From contig DAOVTC010000100.1 in NCBI GenBank assembly GCA_030633285.1, positions 1-5,327 of the forward strand: DNA of 5,327 nucleotides, read 5' to 3'. Below are positions 1-4,448 of the stretch, in pieces. The translations under genes and the position numbers were made by a program. Source of the DNA: Flavobacteriaceae bacterium (GTDB lineage Bacteria > Bacteroidota > Bacteroidia > Flavobacteriales > Flavobacteriaceae). The first letter of the stretch is position 1. Each line of letters opens with the position of its first letter. The notes below the pieces were generated by a model that saw only the letters and a program-made list of their open reading frames with translations, ran no database searches and was not told the DNA's origin.

Positions 1-373
1 TTTCTTGAACGGCAAATGGGTTTACCGCTGTACGAGCACCAATCCACAAGATATCAATATCAAATTCTAATGCTAGTTTTGCATGTTGTGCATTGGCTAT
101 TTCTATAGCAGTAAGTAATCCTGTTTCTTCTTTTACTTTTAGCAACCATGGCAATGCTTTTACGCCATTTCCTTCAAAAGTACCAGGTCTGGTTCTAGGC
201 TTCCAAACTCCTGCTCTGAACACAGTAGCATCCGTATTTTTTAATTCATGAGCAACTTCTAAAACTTGTTCTTCTGATTCTGCACTGCATGGTCCTGCAA
301 TTACCAAAGGATGATCTAATTGCATGTTGTCTAACCATGTTCTAAAATTTTTATTTTCCATTTCCATTTCCAT
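1..373 (-). CDS. 3-deoxy-7-phosphoheptulonate (DAHP) synthase, type I-beta, N-terminal part; probably a DAHP synthase/chorismate mutase fusion
   Basis: Only the first 124 codons are in the window; the gene continues past the left edge. The enzyme condenses phosphoenolpyruvate with erythrose 4-phosphate, the first step of the shikimate pathway. Seen in the sequence (numbered from the ATG at 373): AGPCSAES at 26-33, the GPCS signature of the type I-beta DAHP/KDO8P synthase family; FRAGVWKPRTRPGTF, holding the KPRT substrate loop; and IGARTAVNPFAVQE at the cut edge, the IGART...NPF motif. In Bacteroidota this enzyme is usually fused to a C-terminal type II chorismate mutase. That would explain why neither pheA nor tyrA here carries a mutase domain, but the fusion lies outside the window and is inferred. 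Three in-frame ATGs (373, 367, 361) sit in a hexanucleotide repeat inside the end of tyrA. The exact start is uncertain by four residues, and the shortest form begins MENKNF. It is the last gene seen of the phe/tyr operon, probably translated by coupling to tyrA. Confidence 0.9.
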   Translation of the reverse strand, partial: MEMEMENKNFRTWLDNMQLDHPLVIAGPCSAESEEQVLEVAHELKNTDATVFRAGVWKPRTRPGTFEGNGVKALPWLLKVKEETGLLTAIEIANAQHAKLALEFDIDILWIGARTAVNPFAVQE

Positions 374-1223
374 TTTTAATACCAGCTAAAACACTTTTTA
401 TTTTGTTTGTATTTTGCATAATTGCATAAACTTTTTCTGCTGATTCGTCAGTTATTATTTTTTTAAAATGATTTAAATTTTTAATGTATTCGTTTAATGA
501 TTTTAATATGTATTCTTTATTTTGTAAAAAAATTGGTGTCCATGTTTCAGGATTACTTTTTGCTAGCCTAACGGTTGATTCAAATCCACTTCCAGCCATA
601 TCAAAAATACTTTTTTCATCTTTTTCAATTTCCAAAACAGTTTTTCCTAGCATAAATGAACTGATATGTGATAGATGTGAGACATAAGCAATGTGTTTAT
701 CGTGTTGCTCGGCAGAATCCATAAATACATTACGCATTTTTAATTTTTCAAATATGCTAACTGCACGGTTTATCATTTCTTTACTGCTTAAATTTTGTTC
801 GCAGATAATATTTACTTTATTGGTAAACAAATCATAAATAGCAGCATCAGGTCCTGAAAATTCTGTACCTGAAATAGGATGAAGAGCAACAAAATTTTTC
901 CTTTTCGGATGATTTTTTACTGCTTCACAAACTACGGATTTGGTAGAACCTACATCAAAAACCAAAGTATTTTCATTAATTAAACTTAAAACTTGAATAG
1001 TAAGTTCTGGAATTACATTTACAGGAACAGCAATGATTACCACATCAACTTCTTTAACAATATTGATATCAGCTTTTTTATAAATAATACCAAGATCAAG
1101 AGCTTTATTAAGATGTTTGGGGTTTTTATCAATGCCATAAATAGTAGCCCAAGTAACTTTTTTCAACTCTAAAGCTAAGGAACCGCCAATTAATCCTAAT
1201 CCTATGACTGCAACTTTTTTCAT
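351..1223 (-). CDS. tyrA: Prephenate dehydrogenase
   Basis: A cytoplasmic enzyme of 290 residues that oxidatively decarboxylates prephenate to 4-hydroxyphenylpyruvate, the precursor of tyrosine. The N-terminus is a Rossmann dinucleotide fold: GLGLIGGS at 8-15 and an acidic Asp32 at the end of the second strand, which favours NAD+ over NADP+. Family motifs follow: GSTK at 92-95; HPISGTEFSG at 115-124 with the expected catalytic His115; YVSHLSH at 180-186; and Arg219 in VRLAKSNPETW, the position of the substrate-binding arginine. The length suits a monofunctional enzyme. I see no fused chorismate mutase and no clear ACT domain, so feedback control by tyrosine is not evident in the protein itself. 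The ATG at 1223 is 1 nt after the aminotransferase stop, and the 3' end overlaps the DAHP synthase start. The very C-terminus (NGNGNGK) is low-complexity and comes from the hexanucleotide repeat. Use of arogenate instead of prephenate cannot be excluded. Confidence 0.93.
   Translation of the reverse strand: MKKVAVIGLGLIGGSLALELKKVTWATIYGIDKNPKHLNKALDLGIIYKKADINIVKEVDVVIIAVPVNVIPELTIQVLSLINENTLVFDVGSTKSVVCEAVKNHPKRKNFVALHPISGTEFSGPDAAIYDLFTNKVNIICEQNLSSKEMINRAVSIFEKLKMRNVFMDSAEQHDKHIAYVSHLSHISSFMLGKTVLEIEKDEKSIFDMAGSGFESTVRLAKSNPETWTPIFLQNKEYILKSLNEYIKNLNHFKKIITDESAEKVYAIMQNTNKIKSVLAGIKNGNGNGK
356..373 (-). repeat. Triple ATGGAA hexanucleotide repeat in the tyrA/DAHP synthase overlap
   Basis: On the minus strand ATGGAA occurs three times in tandem. 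In the tyrA frame it gives the Asn-Gly repeats at the C-terminus (GNGNGK, then TAA at 353-351). In the DAHP synthase frame it gives Met-Glu-Met-Glu-Met-Glu, that is, three successive start codons. Because the unit is 6 nt, gain or loss of a copy changes both proteins by two residues and shifts neither frame. Confidence 0.85.
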
Positions 1224-1224
1224 T

Positions 1225-2367
1225 TTAATTATTTTTAGAAATTCTGGTTAAAACTTCTTTAATTCTATCTTCTTCTACGCAAAGTGAAAAGCGAATATAT
1301 CCTTCACCGTTACTTCCAAAAACAGTACCTGGAGTAATAAAAACATTGTAATGGTACAACAATTCATCTGTAATTTCATTAGAGGTTTTACCTTTTGGAA
1401 TTTTTGCCCATACAAATAAACCTGTATTTGTTTTATCATAAGTACAATGAAGATTATCACAAATTTCCCAAATAATATTCCTTCTTTTTCTATAAATAGT
1501 ATTGATTTGATCAAACCATTTTTTTGATAATTTTAAAGCTGTAATTGCCCCTTGTTGGATACCGTAATACATGCCAGAATCCATGTTGCTTTTTACTTTT
1601 AATATGTTATTGATATATTCACTTTTTCCAACTACCATACCAACTCTCCAGCCTGATATATTGAAAGATTTACTTAATGAATTGAGTTCAATTGCAACAT
1701 CTTTCGCTCCTTCATAAGCTAAAATACTTTTAGGCTTATCATTTAAAATAAAACTATATGGATTATCATTCACAATTAATATCTGATGTTTTTTAGCAAA
1801 AGCAATTAATTTTTCAAATAATGTATTAGTTGGTGAGCTACCTGTTGGCATGTGTGGATAATTAACCCACATTATTTTTACTTTTTCTAGATTTACTTTT
1901 TCTAAAGCTTCAAAGTTGGGGAACCAATTATTTTCTTCAACTAAATCGTAATAAACAGGTTTAGCCTGAACCAATTTAGTTACAGAAGTATAGGTAGGAT
2001 ATCCAGGGTTTGGAATTAACACCTCATCACCTTCATTTAAATACGCCATTGAAATATGTAAAATACCTTCTTTTGATCCCATCAAAGGTAAAATTTCATC
2101 GCTAACTTGTAAAGAAACATTGTAATATTTGTAATAAAAATCAGATATAGCTTGTCTAAATTCAGGAATACCTTGATAATTTTGATATCCGTAAATAGTT
2201 GAGTTATTTAATGCATTTATAACTTCTTGTGGAGGTTGTAAATCAGGACTTCCAACACCTAAATTTATAATTGGTTTTCCCTGATTAATCAGAGATCTAA
2301 CTTCTCTTAATTTTTTAGAGAAATAATACTCTTTTACAGTTTTTAATCTGTTGGCAACTTGAATCAT
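1225..2367 (-). CDS. PLP-dependent class I/II aminotransferase, probably the aromatic amino acid aminotransferase of the operon
   Basis: A 380-residue fold-type I aminotransferase of usual length. Visible motifs: NLGVGSPDLQPP at 35-46 near the N-terminus; GSKEG at 97-101 (cofactor phosphate binding); NYPHMPTG at 169-176, the NYPxxPTG motif with Met where Asn is commoner; Asp201 (NDNPYSF), which pairs with the pyridine nitrogen; SLSKSFNISGWRVG at 230-243 with the Schiff-base Lys233; and Arg359 in YIRFSLC, the carboxylate-binding arginine. Sequence alone places it near aspartate, aromatic and LL-diaminopimelate aminotransferases and does not fix the substrate. Its position between pheA and tyrA makes transamination of phenylpyruvate and 4-hydroxyphenylpyruvate to Phe and Tyr the likely job; this is inference. 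The ATG at 2367 overlaps the pheA stop in an ATGA arrangement, which suggests translational coupling. An aspartate or methionine-pathway aminotransferase role remains possible. Confidence 0.88.
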   Translation of the reverse strand: MIQVANRLKTVKEYYFSKKLREVRSLINQGKPIINLGVGSPDLQPPQEVINALNNSTIYGYQNYQGIPEFRQAISDFYYKYYNVSLQVSDEILPLMGSKEGILHISMAYLNEGDEVLIPNPGYPTYTSVTKLVQAKPVYYDLVEENNWFPNFEALEKVNLEKVKIMWVNYPHMPTGSSPTNTLFEKLIAFAKKHQILIVNDNPYSFILNDKPKSILAYEGAKDVAIELNSLSKSFNISGWRVGMVVGKSEYINNILKVKSNMDSGMYYGIQQGAITALKLSKKWFDQINTIYRKRRNIIWEICDNLHCTYDKTNTGLFVWAKIPKGKTSNEITDELLYHYNVFITPGTVFGSNGEGYIRFSLCVEEDRIKEVLTRISKNN

Positions 2368-3206
2368 TTCGTTATTGTATTTTGATGGTATTCTCCTAGT
2401 ATTTTTAAGTGTGTAACTTTTTTATTTATTAAATGTAAAGCATTATTGTAAAGGGTTTTATCATCAAAAACAAGATCAATAAAAAAAGAATATTTCCACG
2501 GTTCTTCAATTTTAGGCAATGATTGAATTTTAGTTAAACTAATTTCGTGTTTAGCAAAAATATCTAAAACTTCTGCTAAACTACCTGTTTCGTGTTTGGT
2601 GATAAATTTGATAGATGACTTATTTTGTACGCCACCAATTTTATTTGAATGAACAGGACTATTTTTTTCCTTTTTAAGGATGAAAAAACGAGTTGAATTA
2701 TATTTAATAGTTTGGATATCGTCAGCAATAACTTCTAAATTATAAAGTTTTGATGCTTCTTTACTTGCTATTGCTGCAATTCCTTTAATTTTTTCATTTT
2801 GAATTCTTTTAGCAACTTCTGCAGTATCTTTTTCTTCAATTAATTTGATATTTGGATGATTTCTAAAATATTTTCGACATTGTAAAATCGCCATAGGATG
2901 TGACCAAACTTCTTTAATATCTTCTAATTTTTGTCCTTTTAAAGCCATTAAATGATGATGAATATTTAAATAAATTTCTCCCTCAATATTTAAATTATAT
3001 TCATCAATTAAAGCATAATTTGGTAATATGGCTCCAGCTATTGAATTTTCAATTGCCATTACAGCACTATCAACTTCGTTGTTTTTTAACAATATAGGAA
3101 TTTCAGTAAATGACAAACATTCACACAATTCAATATTATCGCCAAAAAATTGTTTGGCAACGATATCGTGAAAAGAACCTTTTATACCTTGTATTGCTAC
3201 TTTCAT
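2364..3206 (-). CDS. pheA: Prephenate dehydratase with C-terminal ACT domain
   Basis: A 280-residue monofunctional prephenate dehydratase that turns prephenate into phenylpyruvate, the precursor of phenylalanine. The catalytic domain covers roughly residues 1-178: GIKGSFH at 7-13, AIENSIAG at 51-58, SHPMAILQC at 102-110, and NSTRFF at 170-175, which contains the Thr-Arg-Phe catalytic motif. An ACT regulatory domain follows at about 197-272, with GSLAEVLDIF at 208-217. The usual ESRP motif of the Phe-binding ACT domain reads QSLP (228-231) here, although WKYSFFID after it is as expected. Phenylalanine feedback may therefore differ, or this may be the normal form in the group. There is no N-terminal chorismate mutase domain, unlike enterobacterial PheA. 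It is the first structural gene of the operon. Its ATG lies 13 nt after the U-tract of an attenuator terminator, so its expression should depend on read-through. No Shine-Dalgarno site is seen; the upstream sequence is A/T-rich. Confidence 0.94.
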   Translation of the reverse strand: MKVAIQGIKGSFHDIVAKQFFGDNIELCECLSFTEIPILLKNNEVDSAVMAIENSIAGAILPNYALIDEYNLNIEGEIYLNIHHHLMALKGQKLEDIKEVWSHPMAILQCRKYFRNHPNIKLIEEKDTAEVAKRIQNEKIKGIAAIASKEASKLYNLEVIADDIQTIKYNSTRFFILKKEKNSPVHSNKIGGVQNKSSIKFITKHETGSLAEVLDIFAKHEISLTKIQSLPKIEEPWKYSFFIDLVFDDKTLYNNALHLINKKVTHLKILGEYHQNTITK

Positions 3207-3219
3207 TTTAATTATATCT

Positions 3220-3250
3220 AAAAAAAAAGCCTCGAAAATTTCGAGACTTT
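3220..3250 (-). terminator. Rho-independent attenuator terminator upstream of pheA
   Basis: On the minus strand positions 3250-3240 (AAAGUCUCGAA) pair with 3236-3226 (UUCGAGGCUUU) around a 3-nt loop. This gives an 11-bp stem with one U-G pair and a CUCGA/UCGAG core. Counting from the stem's last C, nine consecutive T residues run from 3228 to 3220. The terminator lies inside the operon leader, 13 nt before the pheA ATG, so it must be conditional for the operon to be expressed. On the plus strand the hairpin lacks a T-run, so it would not act in that direction. Confidence 0.88.
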
Positions 3251-3291
3251 ATGATGTTATATTATTTAACTAATTTACATATAGAGTCTCA
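3242..3291 (-). promoter_or_regulatory. Antiterminator stem (2:3) of the attenuator
   Basis: Minus-strand GAGACU (3290-3285) is the exact complement of AGUCUC (3248-3243); a U-G pair (3291/3242) can extend it to seven. The right-hand strand is the same sequence that forms the 5' side of the terminator stem, so the two structures exclude each other. The first two bases of GAGACU belong to the leader TGA stop codon, so a ribosome halted at the stop would cover this strand. Confidence 0.75.
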
Positions 3292-3351
3292 CTTTATTTT
3301 AAAATAAAAATAAAAGTAAAAACGGTTAAAAATGTAAAAAGTGTTGTTCAT
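3289..3351 (-). CDS. Phe/Tyr-rich attenuator leader peptide, 20 residues
   Basis: The minus-strand ATG at 3351-3349 opens a 21-codon frame closed by TGA at 3291-3289. The peptide begins MNNTFYIFNR, continues FYFYFYF (residues 11-17) and ends KIK. Six residues are Phe (5, 8, 11, 13, 15, 17), all TTT, and four are Tyr (6, 12, 14, 16; TAC, TAC, TAT, TAT). There is no Trp. Its role would be to report the supply of charged tRNA-Phe and tRNA-Tyr through ribosome speed, not to act as a protein, as with the enterobacterial pheA leader peptide. It lies directly upstream of a terminator and of genes that make exactly these two amino acids. The start is about 11-15 nt from the predicted transcription start, after an A-rich stretch with no Shine-Dalgarno site. 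AT-rich DNA raises Phe and Tyr codon frequency by chance, so the case rests on the combination with the stop-codon position and the RNA hairpins. Confidence 0.82.
   Translation of the reverse strand: MNNTFYIFNRFYFYFYFKIK
3291..3317 (-). promoter_or_regulatory. Possible weak pause hairpin (1:2) within the leader peptide gene
   Basis: On the minus strand ACUUUUAUUUU (3317-3307) can pair with AAAAUAAAGU (3300-3291), giving ten base pairs with one bulged U and a 6-nt loop. Only one pair is G-C, so it is weak. It sits where a transcription-pausing hairpin would be in a classical attenuator, and a ribosome translating the Phe/Tyr run would melt it. It touches the antiterminator strand only at position 3291. 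Confidence 0.35.
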
Positions 3352-3369
3352 AATTTTTTAATGTGGCAG

Positions 3370-3399
3370 CAAATCTATAAATATTTTTTTTAATTGCAA
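3370..3399 (-). promoter_or_regulatory. Bacteroidota-type promoter of the phe/tyr operon
   Basis: The minus strand carries TTG (3399-3397), a 19-nt spacer, then TAGATTTG (3377-3370). This matches the flavobacterial pattern of TTG, 17-23 nt, TAnnTTTG at about -33 and -7. Transcription would start near 3362-3366, placing the leader peptide ATG 11-15 nt downstream and the end of the attenuated transcript near 3220, about 145 nt long. Confidence 0.72.
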
Positions 3400-3455
3400 G
3401 TGTTTTTGTGATTTTATTGATAAATCTTTAACATTATTTTTGTTTTGTAGCGAAT

Positions 3456-3481
3456 TTGAAATTAATTGAAAGATAATTTTG
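3456..3481 (+). promoter_or_regulatory. Candidate promoter for gldA
   Basis: TAATTTTG at 3474-3481 fits the TAnnTTTG -7 consensus, with TTG at 3456-3458. The 15-nt spacer is shorter than the usual 17-23 nt. A second match, TATTTTTG at 3435-3442, has a TTG at the same short distance. In DNA this rich in T both may be chance. Apart from these, 3400-3554 holds no gene, hairpin or repeat that I can support. Confidence 0.3.
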
Positions 3482-3554
3482 TGGTTTTATTTGTTTTGAG
3501 TTTAAAATAAACCCACAAAGTTTTGTTTCTTTGTACTCAGCAAATTACTTTTTT

Positions 3555-4448
3555 ATGTCAATAGAAGTACAAAATGTTTTAAAACTTTACGGAAAACAAA
3601 AAGCATTAAACAATGTGTCTTTTACAATACCAACTGGTGAAATAGTTGGGTTTTTAGGGCCAAATGGTGCAGGGAAATCAACTATGATGAAAATATTGAC
3701 TACTTACATTAATCAAAATGAAGGGCAAGTAAAAGTGAATGGATTTGATACTTTGACTCATGATATTGAGGTAAAAAAATCGATTGGCTATTTACCCGAA
3801 CACAATCCGTTATATTTAGATCTGTATGTAAAAGAGTATTTAAATTTTCATGCGAATATTCATAAAGTATCTAAAAACAGAATAAATGAAGTTATTGACT
3901 TAGTAGGTTTATCCCCTGAAAAGGGTAAAAAAATCAATCAGCTTTCAAAAGGATATCGTCAGAGAGTGGGATTAGCAGCAGCACTTTTACACAATCCGGA
4001 AGTTTTGATTTTAGATGAGCCAACTACAGGTCTAGATCCAAATCAATTGGCAGATATCAGAAATTTAATAAAAGATATTGGTAAAACTAAAACAGTATTG
4101 TTATCTACACATATTATGCAAGAAGTTGAGGCTATGTGTGATAGGGTAATAATTATAAATAAAGGAGAGATAGTTGCTGATAAAAAATTAAAAGATTTAT
4201 TAGAAAACCAAGAACAAACTATTGAAGTTGAATTTGATTTACGTGTTGAAGAACAATTATTAAATACAATACCAAATATAAAAAGTGTTCTTAATGTTTT
4301 TGATAATACTTGGCAATTAATTTTTGACACTAAAAAAGATATGCGACCTGAAATATTTGATTTTGCTCAAACTAACGGATTAAAAACTTTACAAATACAG
4401 CAAAAAATTAATAGTTTAGAAAGTTTATTTCAAAATTTGACTAATTAA
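3555..4448 (+). CDS. gldA: Gliding-motility-associated ABC transporter ATP-binding protein GldA
   Basis: A 297-residue cytoplasmic ATPase that would power an ABC-2 type exporter; in gliding flavobacteria GldA works with the membrane proteins GldF and GldG, which are not in this window. Motifs from the ATG at 3555: Walker A GPNGAGKST at 35-43; IGYLPEHNPLY at 77-87, where the Q-loop glutamine is replaced by Glu/His as in other GldA-like proteins; signature LSKGYRQRV at 130-138; Walker B LILDEP at 151-156 with catalytic Glu155; D-loop near Asp161; and switch His186 in STH. The C-terminal ~80 residues are the variable accessory region. A TTG at 3531 would add eight residues, but MSIEV from ATG 3555 is the natural family start. 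It is transcribed away from the phe/tyr operon, and its stop is 10 nt before the porin start, suggesting co-transcription. Assignment to GldA and not a general NatA-like ATPase rests on the overall resemblance and the PEHNPLY stretch. Confidence 0.87.
   Translation: MSIEVQNVLKLYGKQKALNNVSFTIPTGEIVGFLGPNGAGKSTMMKILTTYINQNEGQVKVNGFDTLTHDIEVKKSIGYLPEHNPLYLDLYVKEYLNFHANIHKVSKNRINEVIDLVGLSPEKGKKINQLSKGYRQRVGLAAALLHNPEVLILDEPTTGLDPNQLADIRNLIKDIGKTKTVLLSTHIMQEVEAMCDRVIIINKGEIVADKKLKDLLENQEQTIEVEFDLRVEEQLLNTIPNIKSVLNVFDNTWQLIFDTKKDMRPEIFDFAQTNGLKTLQIQQKINSLESLFQNLTN

Follow-up and report, generated by a model that had tools for sequence, protein, structure and literature searches.

A predicted phenylalanine- and tyrosine-sensing leader attenuator upstream of the pheA operon in Flavobacteriaceae and more distant Bacteroidota

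The 5,327-nt stretch of flavobacterial DNA analysed here (the window) carries a group of aromatic amino acid biosynthesis genes on its minus strand. The first is pheA (2364..3206), which encodes a prephenate dehydratase with an ACT domain (Pfam PF00800 and PF01842); its top NCBIfam equivalog is also prephenate dehydratase, at 202.7 bits under a cut-off of 219. It is followed by a class I/II aminotransferase gene (1225..2367; Pfam PF00155), whose top NCBIfam score is for LL-diaminopimelate aminotransferase at 407.8 bits, below the cut-off of 507, by the prephenate dehydrogenase gene tyrA (351..1223), which exceeds the cut-off of NCBIfam NF006307, and by the first part of a DAHP synthase gene (2..373; Pfam PF00793), an open reading frame cut at the window end. 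The pheA and aminotransferase genes overlap by 4 nt (2364-2367) and tyrA shares 23 nt (351-373) with the DAHP synthase gene in its longest reading, making translational coupling within the operon possible. The divergent gene gldA lies at 3555-4448. Relatives were compared, the nearest being an uncultured Flavobacteriaceae MAG whose pheA shares 96% identity with that of the window. Of the 66 loci in which sequence extends beyond 3.9 kb from the start of pheA, 64 showed the order pheA-aminotransferase-tyrA-DAHP synthase. The description of the operon as complete in the initial annotation thus holds for the Phe/Tyr branch, while the fourth gene present in relatives, that for DAHP synthase, is truncated by the window. 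The place of the aminotransferase in this operon suggests that it is an aromatic aminotransferase, and all four genes serve the synthesis of the amino acids that the element described below is predicted to sense.

Upstream of pheA, the initial annotation had reported a minus-strand frame of 20 codons with ten for Phe or Tyr. This leader ORF is indeed present at 3289..3351, where it encodes MNNTFYIFNRFYFYFYFKIK followed by a stop codon and contains 6 Phe and 4 Tyr codons. A similar Phe/Tyr-rich leader was found upstream of pheA in 78 of 80 assessable loci, comprising the window and 79 relatives; L016, with 44 nt of upstream DNA, had too little sequence to be counted. As a control, we took up to 420 nt of upstream sequence from the window and each of 80 relatives and made 20 shuffles of every region. 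At least six Phe/Tyr codons within ten occurred in 101 of the 1620 shuffled regions, compared to 78 of the 80 real ones, and at least eight, the score of the window, in 2 shuffles and 54 real regions. On these counts, the leader/attenuator arrangement is not due to chance. The same control bears on an alternative in which the element would be a T-box or a riboswitch that binds a ligand or protein, with the small ORF arising incidentally from the AT-richness of the DNA. Such DNA does favour TTT and TAT codons, and a density of six was reached in 6.2% of shuffles; the density seen in the window, however, was reached in just 2 of 1620, which argues against an incidental ORF.

Individual loci depart from this arrangement. 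At L031, the leader lies 1042 nt upstream of pheA (L031:2960), and between the two sits an insertion, a 197-codon ORF (L031:3149-3742, 259-853 nt upstream of pheA; MKTIPFEPSKYYHFFNRG...) that presumably resembles a REP-associated transposase. Repeats of the ACCTGTTAGGTTT type accompany this ORF, and similar repeats were seen between the terminator and pheA in L032, L034 and L038. L056, labelled as a Gammaproteobacteria MAG, has no leader upstream of its pheA, which is 54% identical to that of the window, and the aminotransferase, tyrA and DAHP synthase genes were not found downstream of it; this locus may reflect mis-binning or transfer.

The promoter-like site reported ahead of the leader in the initial annotation appears to be of the Bacteroidota type. 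The predicted -7 element, TAGATTTG (3370..3377, minus strand), fits the consensus TAnnTTTG, which a 2021 transcriptome study of F. psychrophilum places at -12 to -5 (PMC9723704). Based on that placement, transcription is predicted to start near 3365, 14 nt before the leader ATG, and would yield a leader RNA of ~146 nt. An exact TAnnTTTG box occurs no more than 60 nt from the leader start in 58 of 77 loci (L036 was omitted from this count), whereas letter shuffling of these 58 regions produced it in 6.5% of cases. The other 19 loci have no exact box, and among the 58 that have one, 51 place the predicted transcription start 12-20 nt ahead of the leader start codon. We assign low weight to a possible -33 element, TTG at 3397..3399 on the minus strand, 19 nt upstream of the -7 box, of a kind that we assume to be part of the Bacteroidota promoter. 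Of the 58 loci whose -7 box is exact, 48 have TTG 17-23 nt upstream of it, a count that carries no shuffle baseline; for F. johnsoniae, the motifs described at -18 and -28 stand out more than any near -33 (PMC6847099). A scan for E. coli-type promoters returned 2 sites against 2.4 in shuffles and was uninformative. As for translation, none of 77 leaders has GGAG, GAGG or AGGA in the 16 nt before its start, these motifs precede pheA itself in 3 of 78 loci, and A occupies position -3 in 62% of leaders. Both the rarity of Shine-Dalgarno motifs and the A at -3 agree with published descriptions of initiation in Bacteroidia, which proceeds without Shine-Dalgarno use and favours A at -3 (PMC9976891, PMC6847099).

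Downstream of the Phe/Tyr codons, two alternative hairpins can be drawn on the minus strand. Segment 2 (TGAGACT, 3285..3291) forms the 5' strand of the predicted antiterminator and overlaps the leader stop, and segment 3 (AGTCTCG, 3242..3248) is common to the antiterminator and the terminator. Pairing of segments 2 and 3 gives the antiterminator hairpin (3242..3291; -11.4 kcal/mol, z -3.36), whereas pairing of segments 3 and 4 gives an 11-bp terminator hairpin (3226..3250; -11.7 kcal/mol, z -4.82) with a 9-T tract at 3220..3228. The latter agrees with the 11-bp hairpin and 9-T tract that had been placed before pheA, predicted here to span 3250-3220. An antiterminator had been proposed as well; it is present but not limited to the 6 bp originally assigned to it, as the stretch 3292-3241 folds into a single hairpin. 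The near balance of -11.4 and -11.7 kcal/mol matches what a switch would need, and when both helices can form, the minimum-energy fold of the window contains the terminator. Across 3150-3550, two terminator-like sites were detected, one per strand, compared to 0.1 in shuffles. Among relatives, a terminator is predicted between the leader and the first gene in 78 of 78 loci. The antiterminator outperforms shuffled linkers at p <= 0.05 in 68 of the 78 and is not individually significant in the other 10 by this comparison; at L021, the best antiterminator helix is out of register.

The spacing of these parts is informative. The overlap of the stop codon with the antiterminator strand, noted initially for the window, recurs in some relatives, but elsewhere the stop ranges from 5 nt ahead of segment 2 to 30 nt past its start, and we rejected an obligatory overlap of the stop with the start of segment 2 because of this wide variation. 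The end of the Phe/Tyr block, taken as the densest ten codons, lies 7-17 nt from segment 2 in all 78 loci. Since the position of the stop shifts while the distance of the block stays within this narrow range, it is the distance between control codons and segment 2 that appears to be kept, not the place of the stop. By geometry, a ribosome stalled on the control codons would leave segment 2 free and one that finishes the leader would mask it.

This near-fixed distance is a second point against a riboswitch or T-box. Terminator/antiterminator pairs also occur in riboswitches and T-boxes, so the hairpins fit that alternative as well; segments 2 and 3, however, are separated by just 22-43 poorly conserved nucleotides, which leave little space for a binding domain. 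At gathering scores, the window has no match to any Rfam family. The eight weak Rfam matches at E <= 10 in the window include Phe_leader (RF01859; 25 bits, E 0.036, below its gathering score of 55 and hence short of membership) and do not include a T-box. Taken together, we consider a riboswitch or T-box highly improbable and favour the reading of the element as a ribosome-mediated attenuator.

Support for the attenuator also came from covariation. Relatives were aligned, as the initial annotation had proposed, in an alignment of 78 rows (A1) that leaves out L016, L031 and L056. The terminator is paired in 95.7% of cells, with 7 of its 11 pairs changed on both sides, and the antiterminator in 88.3%, with 6 of its 8 pairs changed on both sides; controls in which the helices were slid gave 16-57% paired. 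Cells with two-sided changes numbered 71 for the terminator compared to 24.1 in shuffles, and 40 for the antiterminator compared to 9.9. Because segment 3 is common to both helices, changes have to be threefold, and they were observed to be so: columns 15/74/93 read A-T-A in 39 of 78 rows and G-C-G in 23, and columns 14/75/92 read G-C-G in 69 and A-T-A in 6. These pair counts are inflated by relatedness. On a quick tree of 77 pheA proteins, with one short pheA omitted and with rows lacking a full Watson-Crick triple left out of the triple counts, the minimum numbers of concerted Watson-Crick triple changes at five positions sum to 7, giving ~7 independent concerted changes. Thus, both of the mutually exclusive helices that share the terminator strand show covariation. 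Absence of the short frame or of the stems from close relatives, which would speak against an attenuator, was looked for in this comparison and not found; relatives retain the short ORF, the two helices and the distances between them, and the three pairing segments change in concert.

The covariation also addresses the simplest alternative, a constitutive partial terminator that lowers basal expression with no regulation. The occurrence of a terminator in 78 of 78 loci is as expected of such a device, but segment 2 covaries with the terminator, which a terminator alone would not need, and the Phe/Tyr leader would be left unexplained. We give this alternative almost no credence. The parts, geometry, conservation and coordinated changes instead support the initial proposal of a ribosome-mediated attenuator, and we put the probability that the element is a classical ribosome-mediated transcription attenuator of the pheA-aminotransferase-tyrA-DAHP synthase operon at roughly 93%.

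From this arrangement we infer leader translation, termination and a response to starvation as follows. RNA polymerase would initiate near 3365 and produce the leader RNA, with a ribosome trailing it on the leader ORF. An ample supply of charged Phe-tRNA and Tyr-tRNA would let the ribosome pass the Phe/Tyr block, reach the stop and cover segment 2, so that segments 3 and 4 pair and transcription ends at the T tract. Scarcity of Phe or Tyr would instead stall the ribosome in the block and leave segment 2 free to pair with the emerging segment 3, allowing read-through into pheA and the aminotransferase, tyrA and DAHP synthase genes. In addition, a hairpin between the Phe/Tyr codons and Lys/Arg codons may pause the polymerase and let the ribosome catch up.

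For this pause hairpin, the sequences are suggestive. Segment 1 of the window (3293..3314, minus strand) comprises Phe/Tyr codons and the Lys/Ile codons that follow, within a longer fold at 3321-3287, and Phe/Tyr codons are able to pair with the Lys/Arg codons after them. Compared with synonymous recoding, segment 1 gave a mean z of -1.3 and a mean p of 0.25 across loci, with p <= 0.1 in 23 of 78 and p = 0.22 for the window alone. The linker of a locus folds better than the mean of swapped linkers in 54 of 78 loci. These values weakly suggest a pause hairpin in the leader.

Which amino acids are sensed can be judged from leader composition. The 78 leaders comprise 1902 residues, of which 454 are Phe and 267 Tyr; 39 are Trp, found in 38 leaders (e.g. 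L060, L046 and L022), and the window leader has no Trp codon. The presence of Trp switches at least 13 times on the pheA tree. We also chose by eye 17 leaders of the Polaribacter/Tenacibaculum type (L055, L058, L060-L064, L066-L070, L073, L074, L076, L079 and L080), in which the block is preceded by the motif X-(T/A/S)-(R/G/F)-F; here X is occupied by Phe in 9 of the leaders, by Trp in 6, and by Tyr and Cys in one each. Since Phe to Trp takes two base changes, upkeep of an aromatic codon at X is likely, though not certain. These patterns bear on a further alternative, an arrest peptide that stalls the ribosome through its own sequence or a ligand and not through codon supply. Arrest peptides likewise switch RNA structures, and a recognisable peptide pattern is kept among relatives, as they would require; by eye, however, the residues outside the aromatic block vary widely by clade, and Phe, Tyr and Trp interchange as expected of codon sensing. 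An arrest peptide is therefore very unlikely in our view.

We instead predict attenuation by the supply of Phe and Tyr, and perhaps of Trp too. Pooled sensing of Phe and Tyr, perhaps with Trp, would fit an operon that holds enzymes of both branches and DAHP synthase, and pooling of all three aromatic amino acids would be in keeping with the common DAHP synthase step and with an upstream leader codon that alternates among Phe, Tyr and Trp. A broader proposal, which we advance tentatively and would not be surprised to see fail, is that this is a single attenuator pooling Phe, Tyr and Trp, that it works through tight ribosome-polymerase coupling among bacteria that do without Shine-Dalgarno sequences, and that it may date to an early Bacteroidota ancestor.

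The enterobacterial pheA attenuator likewise has a leader peptide rich in the regulated amino acid and alternative antiterminator and terminator hairpins upstream of pheA, and the element described here has the same features in the same position. It differs in that Tyr codons are interleaved with Phe, whereas E. coli pheL contains Phe and is not known to contain Tyr; in that its operon adds tyrA, an aminotransferase and DAHP synthase; and in that its leaders do without the Shine-Dalgarno motifs scored above. The trp and his leaders of Proteobacteria, in which the stop codon lies near segment 2, have the four-segment logic in common with it and differ in amino acids, operons and phylum.

In the literature, the F. 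psychrophilum transcriptome study describes structured 5' elements, among them one upstream of pheA that is also found in other Flavobacteriaceae genera and has no Rfam hit, and finds strong indications of attenuation by leader peptides ahead of amino-acid operons (PMC9723704). Matched by description, that pheA element is probably the same as the one analysed here, and novelty is limited accordingly; in the text available, that report does not give the leader sequence or codon content of its pheA element and does not describe covariation or a wider distribution. Leader-peptide-like sORFs are mentioned in B. thetaiotaomicron (PMC7366714), the attenuation mechanism has been placed in E. coli, Proteobacteria and Actinobacteria (PMC4833913), and PMC2965389 makes no mention of Bacteroid, Flavobacter, pheA, Cytophaga or Gramella. 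Within the open-access text available, the Phe/Tyr leader, its covariation and its spread in Bacteroidota are undescribed; subscription work (Lopatovskaya et al. 2010, on attenuation) lies outside that scope. What our predictions add is scale, threefold covariation, the mix of Phe and Tyr (and Trp) codons, and the setting in a phylum without Shine-Dalgarno initiation.

As far as sequence tells, this is a real and widely kept attenuator-like element that works on a textbook principle. A case backed by covariation would imply that the ribosome can load near an A-rich 5' end in bacteria that ignore Shine-Dalgarno sequences, and that it tracks RNA polymerase closely enough to decide termination. 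The element could therefore serve as a ready reporter for transcription-translation coupling in Bacteroidota and as a regulatory handle for aromatic amino acid synthesis, and it could yield an RNA family model absent from Rfam 15.

Distribution was assessed with a covariance model of 120 positions (R1), built from 47 of the 78 sequences with no pheA sequence included. We searched 120 genomes of the family of Aureibaculum luteum, whose genome (G001, that of L022) also supplied a training sequence, as other genomes of the set may have. R1 matched at E <= 0.01 in 99 of the 120 genomes, and a prephenate dehydratase (PDT) gene was found in 102. In 95 of these 102 genomes the match and the PDT domain share a strand, with the match 0-524 nt ahead of the domain. 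Of the 7 genomes missed, five (L176-L180) have a divergent Phe/Tyr leader along with a terminator and complementary segment, whereas L174 and L175, 2 of the 102, have no attenuator-like leader before pheA. Conversely, 4 of the 99 matching genomes have no PDT match, and 27 of the 122 R1 matches in the family search are not upstream of a PDT gene.

Across the family and phylum searches, pheA adjoins 56 of the best-scoring 58 R1 match loci. L144 and L145, which have no adjoining pheA, are false matches near E = 1e-3, so that the phylum tally of 45/296 is not clean. At 15 phylum loci, pheA is just 40-49% identical to that of the window, and in each of the 15 we found a leader with 6-9 Phe/Tyr codons in ten together with a complementary segment and a terminator. 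The stems of these distant loci use other letters (e.g. GCCGGGACT/AGTCCCGGC), and the best helix found at L138 has just 4 bp. Together with nine others, they make up 24 further loci, all 24 with leader, terminator and complementary segment. In 13 phylum regions, hand-picked and not random, with G206 and G115 partly chosen for weak model matches, the element is present in 4 (L181 and L183-L185) and absent from 9; L183, in a region of 57% G+C, has a leader plus a 5-bp helix. Universality in Bacteroidota was considered and rejected, with the 30 highest-scoring phylum PDT loci (L085-L114) all at a density of 4 or less. The predicted elements recovered in these searches show that most of the flavobacteria analysed, and some bacteria less closely related to them, keep the arrangement ahead of the pheA operon. 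Lastly, several genomes contain weak second R1 matches at E 0.001-0.01 (e.g. G202:C1:1854734-1854840 and G084:C2:604580-604696), which could be other amino-acid attenuators or plain terminators.
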